DNA of 64,000 nt, from assembly GCA_004293365.1 (NCBI GenBank), contig RDYN01000061.1, positions 24,292 through 88,291 of the forward strand, read 5' to 3'. Below, piece by piece: positions 9,739-14,826 of this stretch. Below the pieces are notes generated by a model. That model worked only from the letters and a program-made list of their open reading frames with translations, had not been told where the DNA came from and did not search any database. Source of the stretch: Oscillatoriales cyanobacterium. Lineage in GTDB: Bacteria; Cyanobacteriota; Cyanobacteriia; Cyanobacteriales; Microcoleaceae. Within the stretch, counting starts at the first letter, position 1, and every line of letters starts with the position of its first letter. The translations under genes and the position numbers were made by a program.

Positions 9739-9868
9739 AACAGGCTAGAAGCTTGTTCCACAACAACAGGCTAGAAGCTTGTTCCACAACAACAGGCTAG
9801 AAGCTTGTTCCACAACAACAGGCTAGAAGCTTGTTCCACAACAACAGGCTAGAAGCCTGTTCCACAAA
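9739..9868. repeat. Tandem repeat of a 26-bp unit with aggctagaagc(t/c)tgttcc
   Basis: Five tandem copies of a unit built around acaggctagaagcttgttcc follow gdhA. The halves gaacaggct and agcttgttc make an imperfect palindrome, so transcripts could form hairpins. The last copy differs by one base (agcctgtt). The following 240 bp to the next gene hold nothing I can identify. Confidence 0.85.
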
Positions 9869-11489: not shown

Positions 11490-11589
11490 GCGCGATTGAG
11501 TGTGCGATATTTCGTGCTTTGGCTTGGTGGCGATTTGAGCGATCGACAATATATACAAACCCGCCCTACTATTCCTTAAACTAAACTAA

Positions 11590-11821
11590 ATAATTGGACA
11601 GTCACTAACCCCAGCTATCAAGGCGTGGGGCTTGAAAGAGGAAGACTCACCACCTTCTTGATTCAAGACTAAAACAGTGTCTAGCCTACGTCCTTAAAAG
11701 ACAGACTGAACTGCCTGGGAGTGGTATCCTGCAAGACGTTAAGAATGCCTCTCTAGTTTTTAACCGCTCTGGCAGTCAGTGGCGAAGGGAAATATACACC
11801 TAGAAATAGGACTTACCGTAA
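11590..11821 (+). ncRNA. Probable omega RNA (HEARO RNA) of the IsrB element
   Basis: The 230 bp directly before the IsrB start contain no gene but much potential structure. A hairpin of the form CCCCA..TGGGG lies at about 11610-11631, and ACTGCC (11710-11715) can pair with GGCAGT (11771-11776). IscB and IsrB genes carry their guide RNA scaffold just upstream of the reading frame; this RNA was first described as HEARO. The scaffold runs almost to the ATG at 11822, and its guide should be read from sequence at the left end near 11570-11595. The left boundary is approximate. A covariance search would settle it. Confidence 0.65.
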
Positions 11822-12877
11822 ATGTTTGTACCCGTTGTCAACAGTGAAAATAGACCGTTAATGCCGACTACCAACGCCCGTGCTAAGCGTTGGATCAAAT
11901 CAGGCAAGGCAACACCATTCTGGAAAAAAGGAGTATTTTGCATCCGACTAAATGCAGAACCTTCAAATCACAACTATCAACCCATAGCGGTTGGCATCGA
12001 TCCAGGCAGCAAGCGCGAAGGATTTACCGTTAAATCCAAATCGCATACTTACTTAAATATCCAAACTCATGCAATTGATTGGGTAAAAGACCGTGTAGAG
12101 GTCAGGCGCAATATGCGACGATCTCGTCGATTTCGGAACACGCCGTGCCGCCAAAATAGAGCTAACAGGCTGGTTAACAAAAATCGTATCCCCCCATCCA
12201 CGGCATCAAGATGGCAGTGGAAGTTAAGGATAGCTAACTGGTTGACATTGATGTTTCCGATATCGACATTTGTTGTAGAGGACATCAAGGCACAAAAGAG
12301 GAAAAACGGATCGCCCGTGTGGAATGTATCGTTTAGTCCTTTAGAAGTGGGCAAAAAGTGGTTTTACTGTGAGATTAGAAAGATTGCCCATCTTGAGATT
12401 AGATCGGGAAACGATACTTATGAGCTACGTCAAAGTTTAGGACTCAAAAAATCCAAACAGAAGCTATCGAAGAAGTTTGAGGCTCACTGCATTGATTCTT
12501 GGGTATTAGCTAATTGGTATACAGGGGGACACATTCAACCTGATAATACCAAGCTAATAGAAGTAATCTCTCTTGAGTTTCATCGCAGGCAACTCCATCG
12601 TTTGCAGCATTCTACAGGTCATATCCGCTCTCGGTACGGTGGCACTTTAAGTGCGGGGTTTAAGCGTGGTTCGATCGTTAAACATCCTAAATATGGGTTC
12701 TGTTATGTTGGCGGATGGCAAGAATCTCCTACAAAGAAAGAACCAGACCGAAAAACAATTAGCTTGCACGAGTTAAAAACTGGCAAGCGTCTAACTCAAA
12801 ACGCATTACCCCCAGATTGTAAGTTTTTGGCTTACAACTCGTGGCGCATTGCAAACATTGTAAAGCCGTCCTTCTAG
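11822..12877 (+). CDS. isrB: IsrB-type RNA-guided nuclease (RuvC only, no HNH)
   Basis: A 351-residue protein of the IscB/IsrB family, the group from which Cas9 arose. The N-terminal PLMP domain shows the name-giving motif RPLMPTTNARAK (residues 11-22). Split RuvC motifs follow: RuvC-I with Asp60 in VGIDPGSKREGF, an arginine-rich bridge helix (about 91-113, RRNMRRSRRFRN), RuvC-II with Glu153 in FVVEDIKA, and RuvC-III with His222 and Asp225 in HCIDSWVLA. Only about 70 residues separate RuvC-II and RuvC-III, so no HNH domain fits; that makes it IsrB and not IscB. IsrB proteins studied so far nick the non-target strand under omega RNA guidance. The C-terminal part (about 265-351) resembles the target-motif-binding region. 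All catalytic residues are intact. Its stop codon lies inside the end hairpin of the element. Confidence 0.88.
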   Translation: MFVPVVNSENRPLMPTTNARAKRWIKSGKATPFWKKGVFCIRLNAEPSNHNYQPIAVGIDPGSKREGFTVKSKSHTYLNIQTHAIDWVKDRVEVRRNMRRSRRFRNTPCRQNRANRLVNKNRIPPSTASRWQWKLRIANWLTLMFPISTFVVEDIKAQKRKNGSPVWNVSFSPLEVGKKWFYCEIRKIAHLEIRSGNDTYELRQSLGLKKSKQKLSKKFEAHCIDSWVLANWYTGGHIQPDNTKLIEVISLEFHRRQLHRLQHSTGHIRSRYGGTLSAGFKRGSIVKHPKYGFCYVGGWQESPTKKEPDRKTISLHELKTGKRLTQNALPPDCKFLAYNSWRIANIVKPSF

Positions 12878-12903
12878 GACGGGGTTTCAAACCCATTTTT
12901 CTG

Positions 12904-14601
12904 ATGACAAAATTTTATAGCAGAATTCCAACAACATTGGTAGGGGCGGTGGCGATCGTCGTCTCAGTGCAAATTCTGCCAGCACCAGCACTAGAACGAA
13001 CCGAAATCGGGGAAATTGCTAAAAAATTTACAGTAATGATCGCTGGCGACTGTCAGGGATCGGGCTCGATCATTGAGCGTCAAGGTGAAAATTATACAGT
13101 CCTTACTGCCAATCACGTCGTAGCAACTACTGGTGAATGCTTTATTCAAACTGGCGACGGTATGCGTTACAAAATCTACGAAGCCATAAACGTGCCGGGA
13201 ACAGATTTAGCAGTGTTGCAGTTCCAAAGCAAAAATAACTATGGAGTCGCTCAAACTGCGACCTCTGCAAATTTGCAGCCTGGGTCAACAGTTTATGTAG
13301 CAGGTTATCCCAGTCCCGGACAATTTGATACCAAACGCGGCTACCGCTTTTATCCTGTCAACGTCAACGGTAGAGCACCCGGTTCTCGTGAAGGTTACGA
13401 ACTATCCTACGACGGCGCATCTCTCCCCGGTATGAGTGGCGGCCCGGTTCTCGACAGCAACGGCCGTGTGGTAGCAACTCACGGTAAAGCTGACGTGCGG
13501 CTTCAACAGGCTGTAGAGAATTACGGCGTTCCTTTTGAGATATTTCTGGCGAGACGGAACCAAATAAGGGGCGACGCCCGATCGACCTCAGCCCAGAATC
13601 CACCCGTCGCAATAGCACCGCCACCTGCTATAACCTCTGCCCCCCCACCAGCACCAGCCCCAGCCCCAGCCCCCGTACCAGCGCCAGCACCAGCGCCAGT
13701 ACCAGCCCCCGCACCAGCACCAGCACCAGCCCCCGCACCAGCACCAGCCCCTGCACCACAGGCCCAAGCACCATCGCCAGAACCGGAACGCATCGCAGCT
13801 AGGGAAGCGCTATCACCTGCGGAGTCGGCAATTAGTGCAATGGTGCGCGGCCAGCAAACCTATGTGGTTCGCAACCGCGATTTTCTCAATTCTGTGCCGT
13901 CGATCGCCAAAACCTTTAGTATTTTATTGCCGCAGGATTACAACTTTGCAATTCGCACCACTACCAGAGGCGCTTTTCACTACGCAATACCGAAATCTGC
14001 GGACATGAAAGCTTATGTCGGAGCAATTTTCTTGGAAGAAAACGCCAGTTTAAAGAATCCGACAACTGTCTCGATTGTCTGCGAAGCCACAACAGCAATC
14101 AATGTTCGCCCTTCCGATCCGAATTACGGCAGAAATAATTTAGCTTGCGGTGTGGGTACGCAGCTCAGAAATGTCAGCAGTTTGCCGCAGCAAAATGTAG
14201 TTACCCAGCCTGCACCTGCGACAAGGCCTGCACCTACTCCCGCAGCCAGAGTAAATCCACCTCAAACTAGAGCCGCAGGGCCGATCGGGTTTTTGAGTTT
14301 AGTTAATGTTTGCAATACTTACGACCTCAGCGGTCAAAGTCCTCACCAAGAGAGAGCTTTGGAGTGGTTGCAGGGCCGGATTCCGGCGCCAACAATGCAG
14401 AAATTTGCTGAAGAGTGGCGCACTCAATTAATAGCAAGAGTCGGTAACAAGCCGATTAATTTGGTCGATGTTTGCAAAGTGTACGATCGGGCCGGCCTTC
14501 ACCCGCACCAAAATCGGGCTTTGGAATGGTTGCAGCAGCAAATTCCCAAGGAAACGCTGACAGATTTCGGCAAAAAGTGGCAAAATCAAGCCGGTTCGTA
14601 G
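12904..14601 (+). CDS. Exported trypsin-like protease with Pro/Ala linker and pilin-like C-terminal domain
   Basis: A 565-residue modular protein. A signal sequence (residues 8-31) leads to a trypsin-like domain with His71 (LTANHVV), Asp101 (GTDLAVLQF) and Ser178 (GMSGGPVL). A Pro/Ala-rich linker fills about residues 239-292. Residues about 302-430 resemble the cyanobacterial type IV pilin-like G/H family (AISAMVRGQQTYVVRNRDFL, then MKAYVGAIF and VSIVCEA) but without a pilin N-terminal helix. Two copies of a helical repeat of about 43 residues end the protein, each with VCxxYDxxG and HQxRALEWLQ (about 462-505 and 518-560). The start at 12904 is preferred; an in-frame ATG at 12841 lies inside isrB. 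No ribosome binding site is visible, because the IsrB element ends here. Confidence 0.82.
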   Translation: MTKFYSRIPTTLVGAVAIVVSVQILPAPALERTEIGEIAKKFTVMIAGDCQGSGSIIERQGENYTVLTANHVVATTGECFIQTGDGMRYKIYEAINVPGTDLAVLQFQSKNNYGVAQTATSANLQPGSTVYVAGYPSPGQFDTKRGYRFYPVNVNGRAPGSREGYELSYDGASLPGMSGGPVLDSNGRVVATHGKADVRLQQAVENYGVPFEIFLARRNQIRGDARSTSAQNPPVAIAPPPAITSAPPPAPAPAPAPVPAPAPAPVPAPAPAPAPAPAPAPAPAPQAQAPSPEPERIAAREALSPAESAISAMVRGQQTYVVRNRDFLNSVPSIAKTFSILLPQDYNFAIRTTTRGAFHYAIPKSADMKAYVGAIFLEENASLKNPTTVSIVCEATTAINVRPSDPNYGRNNLACGVGTQLRNVSSLPQQNVVTQPAPATRPAPTPAARVNPPQTRAAGPIGFLSLVNVCNTYDLSGQSPHQERALEWLQGRIPAPTMQKFAEEWRTQLIARVGNKPINLVDVCKVYDRAGLHPHQNRALEWLQQQIPKETLTDFGKKWQNQAGS

Positions 14602-14826
14602 TAAGGACTGAAGTCCTTTCCAGGTTCGTAGTAAGGACTGAAGTCCTTTCCAGGTTCGTAGTAAGGACTGAAGTCCTTTCCAGGTTCGTAGGTCCTTTCC
14701 AGGTTCGTAGTAAGGACTTCAGTCCTTTCCAGGTTCGTAGTAAGGACTTCAGTCCTTTCCAGGTTCGTAGTAAGGACTTCAGTCCTCTCTCCTCTGATAA
14801 AATAAGGACTAAAGTCCTTACTACAA
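14600..14826. repeat. Tandem array of aggttcgtagtaaggact(g/t) palindromic units
   Basis: About seven 30-bp units, each containing aaggactgaagtcctt or aaggacttcagtcctt, lie between convergent genes. The palindromic core can form a stem in each unit. The unit starting at 14685 lacks its left half. A related core, ggacttcagtcc, builds the arrays at 32605-32893 and 37748-37861. Confidence 0.88.

Follow-up and report, generated by a model that had tools for sequence, protein, structure and literature searches.

A cyanobacterial IsrB element at a start codon and the insertion preference of its family

How does an RNA-guided nickase element without a transposase come to lie exactly in front of the start codon of an intact gene, and what might it gain from that position? 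The question is raised by a locus of an Oscillatoriales cyanobacterium (assembly GCA_004293365.1, contig RDYN01000061.1); the window analysed here is a stretch of 64,000 nucleotides of this contig, numbered from its first letter. A first-pass annotation, made from the letters alone, had called an intact IsrB element with an upstream omega RNA at 11585-12903, and overlooked both its exact position at a start codon and how frequent this position is in the family. The position bears on what use IsrB is to its element, and on how an omega RNA can be transcribed when its guide is sequence beyond the element's own end. We find one complete IsrB element of the OMEGA type at 11601-12903, ordinary as an IsrB, and consider it probable that it is a non-autonomous, IS200/IS605-like unit that inserts at start codons, takes its guide from the host leader, uses the host promoter and homes on empty alleles.

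An IsrB element between a leader and its start codon

The limits of the element were determined by comparison within its own genome (7.3 Mb) and with its close relatives, which, judged by this element, belong to Microcoleus and to other Oscillatoriales cyanobacteria. Four other copies in the same genome are similar to it in DNA sequence from 11600 or 11601 onwards, and seven same-genus genomes (L114, L116-L121) hold the uninterrupted site, with alignments that cross 11600|12904 and show no duplication; at an eighth locus (L122) the alignment covers the right side only. These seamless empty alleles therefore place the element at 11601-12903 (1303 bp), and the same insertion is carried by genome G007. 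The right end agrees with the first-pass annotation, while its left end has to be moved inwards, as 11585-11600 is host sequence that falls within the predicted guide. As is typical of IS200/IS605-like elements, the insertion is next to a short fixed motif and has not duplicated its target, as seen at the empty sites and, for the motif, at 53 of 53 right ends described below. At the right end, a hairpin CCGTCC..GGACGG (12866-12882, + strand; z −2.9 as DNA) overlaps the isrB stop codon and recurs in the right ends of relatives; the tip GGGTTTCAAACCCATTTTTCTG (12882-12903, +), identified by motif matches in same-genus genomes, adjoins the target. Directly beyond it, ATGA (12904-12907, +) is both the target-adjacent motif (TAM), as read from the empty sites of the seven relatives, and the start codon of the host gene. 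This gene (12904-14601, +) is an intact open frame of 565 codons, by eye a trypsin-like protease, whose product had no match in NCBIfam at 1e-30.

A guide duplex of 20 nt is described for IsrB by Hirano et al. (PMC9581776), and with this length the predicted guide is 11581-11600 (+), directly left of the element and thus the host leader of the downstream gene. An NTG-type TAM on the 3' side of the target is provided by ATGA at the empty site, judged by genomic position. The guide plus NTGA was searched in 29 genomes, seven of which had a match (reversed control pattern, one match): there were no mismatches in the empty allele of G013, one in G016 and three in three more genomes. In the window's own genome and in G007, the sole guide match within three mismatches was the guide copy itself, followed by GTCA; guide and TAM stand together in empty alleles only.

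The isrB open reading frame (ORF; 11822-12877, +) begins with ATG and encodes 351 aa, predicted to be a RuvC-only RNA-guided nickase. Its first half matches RRXRR (Pfam PF14239, E 1.6e-34), and its top PDB relative is DtIsrB (8dmb; 132 bits, residues 3-305), which also ranked first when the AlphaFold2 model (predicted local distance difference test score 77.5) was compared with the PDB by Foldseek (E 5.8e-25, TM-score 0.66/0.70, root mean square deviation 9.2, 30% identity in the alignment). All four RuvC residues reported in the first pass (D60, E153, H222 and D225) are present, and they are invariant in 42 of 42 proteins of at least 300 aa, the window protein among them (16 more loci gave less than 300 aa from an extrapolated start and are outside this count). 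E153 and H222 are 69 residues apart, in line with the approximately 70 residues noted earlier between RuvC-II and RuvC-III, and this leaves no room for an HNH domain. An identity as IscB was rejected, as there was no HNH match and the guided_IscB profile of NCBIfam scored 97.7 bits, under its cut-off of 175. As had also been claimed, no transposase lies inside 11601-12903; the element looks intact, and nicking activity is predicted. In size, RuvC and bridge helix, PLMP start and lack of HNH, the protein resembles DtIsrB, CwIsrB and DsIsrB, which likewise have an upstream omega RNA with a 5' guide and an NTG-type TAM on the 3' side; the omega RNA measures ~220 nt here and roughly 300 nt there (PMC9581776). 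The same paper reports NTG recognition and cleavage in assay for the IsrBs of the cyanobacteria Crocosphaera watsonii and Dolichospermum sp. and presents IsrB as the presumed forerunner of IscB and Cas9; the first-pass statement that such nickases are known from other bacteria was thus correct but understated.

The HEARO-like omega RNA scaffold spans 11601-11821 (+; 3' end approximate), starts with the left end GTCACTAACC, and was delimited by its RF02033 match, the similarity among copies and covariation. The search with the HEARO covariance model, named beforehand in the first-pass annotation, gave a weak match in a permissive local scan (RF02033 at 11601-11797, 30.9 bits, E 4e-4); it extends over the whole model and includes the main helices, but 46 model positions and their neighbours have no counterpart in the window RNA, and an Rfam scan at gathering level (score 83) gave no match. 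The second match of the permissive scan, snoJ33, was taken as chance. RNAalifold predicted 39 pairs from 42 related leaders, 32 of them with both sides changed. The covariation test counted 34 of these pairs, leaving out one five-pair stem: across the 42 aligned omega RNAs, 96.5% of cells were standard pairs and 30 of the 34 pairs had changed on both sides. The covariation score was 0.579 compared with 0.201 in shuffles, none of 500 shuffles reaching any of five covariation measures, and with at most 0.098 for slid partners, a comparison in which the structure is favoured because it was derived from the same alignment. A structured omega RNA upstream of isrB is therefore supported by covariation. 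Both pairings singled out in the first pass belong to it: the left-end hairpin CCCCA..TGGGG (11609-11630, +) is helix 1, with 6 of 7 pairs changed on both sides, and the long-range stem of 11710-11715 with 11771-11776 (11710-11776, +, enclosing inner hairpins) forms part of helix 3 (columns 125-130 with 191-197), with 8 of 9. On its own and folded as DNA, the left hairpin is unremarkable (z −1.4).

Start codons as preferred insertion sites

Three sets of insertions were examined. Junctions were counted as unique when they differed at more than 6 of the 25 bases directly past the junction (set 1 merged identical first 24 bases), so some relatedness may remain. Set 1 comprised IsrB loci of the genus, the class and named genomes and gave 49 unique right ends, after exclusion of nine loci without a recognised right end, two with the right end lost or uncertain (L042, L057) and one repeating the site of another (L041, same as L040). 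An ORF of at least 80 codons opened at 34 of the 49, and where both ends were known, 25 of 41 insertions lay at called gene starts, compared with 47 of 1167 background ATGA sites. For set 2, the right-end motif was searched in 29 same-genus genomes regardless of its 3' neighbour; this gave 53 matches in 24 genomes (reversed pattern, 0), every one of which was followed by ATGA. ORFs of at least 80 codons opened at 29 of 44 unique junctions, and petL (33 aa) is among the shorter ones, as are two 76-codon genes, one with a MazE-like and one with a DUF433 match. Set 3 consisted of virus-associated IsrBs, 39-63% identical, whose 62 loci yielded 38 unique right ends (14 without a right end, 10 duplicates; L239 was mis-set); 25 of the 38 opened an ORF of at least 60 codons against a background of 23.5% (p 4e-8). 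Since the right-end rule of sets 1 and 3 required (A/G)TGA (in set 3 also ATGG), the ATGA found there is not independent, whereas that of set 2 is.

When the insertions were pooled and one classifier was applied to joined flanks and background alike, 39 of 61 insertions were at called starts compared with 61 of 1308 ATGA sites (p 1e-36); the pool includes three protein-less copies of the window's genome placed by hand, and one of these (L028), set two bases off, counted against the claim. The family thus strongly prefers start codons, in the sense orientation. Purifying selection alone might produce such a pattern if the transposase needs ATGA, hits in coding sequence are lost and hits at gene edges survive, the supply of a guide and a host promoter being irrelevant. 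Background ATGA sites are indeed mostly coding (987 of 1308), yet only 8 of 61 insertions lie in called coding sequence, as this explanation predicts. With coding sites excluded, however, starts still make up 39 of 53 insertions against 19% expected from noncoding and start sites (p 1e-17), so that coding loss is insufficient and calls for a further preference, or for an advantage in retention, beside it. The start-codon bias is thus due in part, but not wholly, to selection against coding insertions, and as a full account we hold such selection possible but distinctly the less probable one.

Downstream proteins were then used to judge the start codons themselves. Twenty were chosen by hand for family scans (the second ten against NCBIfam only, at 1e-30), and in ten the match to a family began at profile position 1 or 2 and within residues 1-13 of the protein: gnd, efp, petL, HetZ-related, DUF433, fabF, ndhF, pyrF/E, lpxC and metH, the last a protein cut by the locus end and scoring below cut-off. 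Two others (L164, L167) gave weak matches beginning at the profile start, and eight had no match from the profile start (FcmB, for example, aligns from profile position 30 onwards and mfd no earlier than residue 43). By their profile matches, the downstream ORFs appear to be real gene starts and not chance ORFs. The gnd locus could be read in 26 of 27 fetched loci: 17 were empty, one (G000) carried a 337-bp protein-less element, and in eight genomes (L207, L208, L209, L211, L216, L221, L225, L232) gnd is preceded by a right end of another type. No recognised left end was found at those eight loci (L216 has only 43 bases upstream), and by eye their right ends look like remnants or like elements that have been shortened. 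Two end types at this gene indicate that its start codon was hit at least twice, and the persistence of the other type before gnd in eight genomes suggests that gnd can be expressed behind an end of this kind.

Around the insertions, the left flanks (57 of 58) often have G at position −9 (0.45 at starts, 0.41 at non-starts) and A at −8 (0.40 and 0.65), which may be due to chance or reflect a weak target preference. Weinberg reportedly noted ATGA or GTGA next to HEARO insertions. Among the literature matches listed, as judged by titles and abstract openings, a scope outside which the founding papers fall (Weinberg 2009, Kapitonov 2016, Altae-Tran 2021), there was no report of start-codon placement for IsrB, IscB or HEARO elements, and the term 'start codon' is absent from the main text of PMC9581776.

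Element kinds and their distribution

A recognised left end was present at 26 of the 44 unique junctions of set 2, delimiting nine elements of 1269-1303 bp, which have room for isrB, 16 of 333-420 bp, which are too short for it, and one of 882 bp. Since so many elements are too short to encode the protein, the element ends rather than the protein seem to define what moves. IsrB itself is patchily distributed (22 of 59 genomes, the window's own included, at E 1e-40), at sites that differ between genomes. In collections of plasmids and phages, the IsrB search returned nine plasmid records, all cyanobacterial by name, and eight phage records, seven of them cyanophages.

The window's own genome also holds short omega RNA elements without isrB (L024, L025, which is the same as L160, L026 and L028; HEARO 118-146 bits). 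The right ends of L025 and L028 are like that of the window and those of L024 and L026 are of another type; by eye, three of the four adjoin gene starts. Three further loci of this genome (L027, L029, L031) are of the IscB type and have different left ends (GCTATC.. or GCGTGC..). At four virus-contig loci (L250, L255, L258, L294), among the 14 without a recognised right end, the next gene comes directly after isrB and has a Shine-Dalgarno-like motif of its own; isrB may be free-standing there. Elsewhere in the window, exact 30-bp tandem repeats at 14593-14786 form two arrays of ~3 copies each, where the protease gene ends and shortly beyond it, and a 26-bp tandem repeat occupies 9739-9867 (five copies, 99% matches).

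Proposed mechanism and its standing

The mechanism that we propose starts from the insertion established above, placed precisely where the leader of the protease gene meets its ATG(A) start codon. The NTG TAM of cyanobacterial IsrBs would coincide with start codons, as N-T-G is the form of a bacterial start codon, and insertion before ATG in the sense orientation would turn the host leader into the guide. A single transcript from the host promoter upstream could then cover the guide, the omega RNA, isrB and the host gene, and the IsrB complex would nick element-free copies, either sister chromosomes in polyploid cyanobacteria or incoming DNA, favouring the copying of the element into them. The occupied copy, in which the guide is now followed by GTCA, would for that reason be safe from nicking, and the host would tolerate the insertion because its reading frame is kept whole. 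For the element to move, a transposase would have to be provided in trans.

Several observations weigh against this mechanism. The right tip GGGTTTCAAACCCATTTTT looks like a weak intrinsic terminator and would as such impede read-through into the host gene, and the one promoter-like site upstream (11543-11572) is at chance level (2 found in the region, 2.4 expected). About a third of the pooled insertions (22 of 61) are not called starts (14 noncoding, 5 coding-sense, 3 antisense), although some of these, for example those at lpxC and petL, are starts missed by the classifier. In set 3, only four right ends had a recognised left end, and two of the four were start-like (p 0.07). A Shine-Dalgarno-like motif occurs in only 8 of 40 leaders displaced at start insertions, against 6.8% in the background; it is therefore not required and was rejected as a targeting signal. 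Among right ends, the Shine-Dalgarno motif was found in 0 of 19 of the window's type and 17 of 30 of other types, a contrast that is descriptive only, since the two types were split by the tip sequence itself; with 0 of 19, the right end was rejected as a universal substitute ribosome-binding site. Furthermore, the window's genome has four Y1 matches, three with a full ORF that we take to be RAYT-like, and the Y1 loci read contain no left-end or window-type right-end motif, matches to a loose right-end pattern being judged unrelated. From the loci read, these genes appear unlikely mobilisers, and as the search brought up no transposase whose ends match, we assume that the element is mobilised in trans. 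Association with TnpA is likewise described for few HEARO nucleases in PMC9755519.

The lack of a transposase in the element and the weak HEARO score would also suit a decayed, inactive relic, but the full-length ORF, the catalytic residues and the covarying RNA make this improbable, and the empty sites of close relatives point to an insertion of fairly recent date. Slightly less probable still is a TldR-like unit, retained by the host for RNA-guided control of the gene downstream rather than being selfish: its location in the leader of an intact gene and the right ends persisting at gnd in eight genomes without a recognised left end would fit, whereas the RuvC residues identical in all 42 proteins, the missing second guide target within three mismatches in its own genome, and the patchy occurrence at differing sites do not.

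For the self-spreading start-codon element that we favour, the polyploidy of cyanobacteria would offer IsrB an opportunity for drive comparable to that of TnpB on multicopy plasmids. TnpB cuts both strands and its RNA carries the guide at the 3' end; IsrB differs as a nickase with its guide at the 5' end, for which homing is proposed here. TnpB is reported to act as a gene drive of IS200/605 elements on multicopy plasmids (PMC11870625), and the likeness lies in an RNA guide that keeps a record of where the element inserted and is directed at copies lacking it.

Whether the scheme extends to IsrB/HEARO elements at large we regard as evenly balanced: such elements may be start-codon seekers, with a TAM like a start codon, sense entry, a guide from the leader and transcription from the host promoter, spreading by nicking empty alleles across polyploid chromosomes while the host gene stays translatable, some lineages adding a new ribosome-binding site at the right end. 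The window element itself belongs to a known kind, and what merits further work is the start-codon rule. It would give one answer to the choice of TAM, the transcription of the guide and the tolerance of the host together, and is testable in ordinary cyanobacteria; if true, the native guides and targets of these elements would be predictable from the leader before the ATG.
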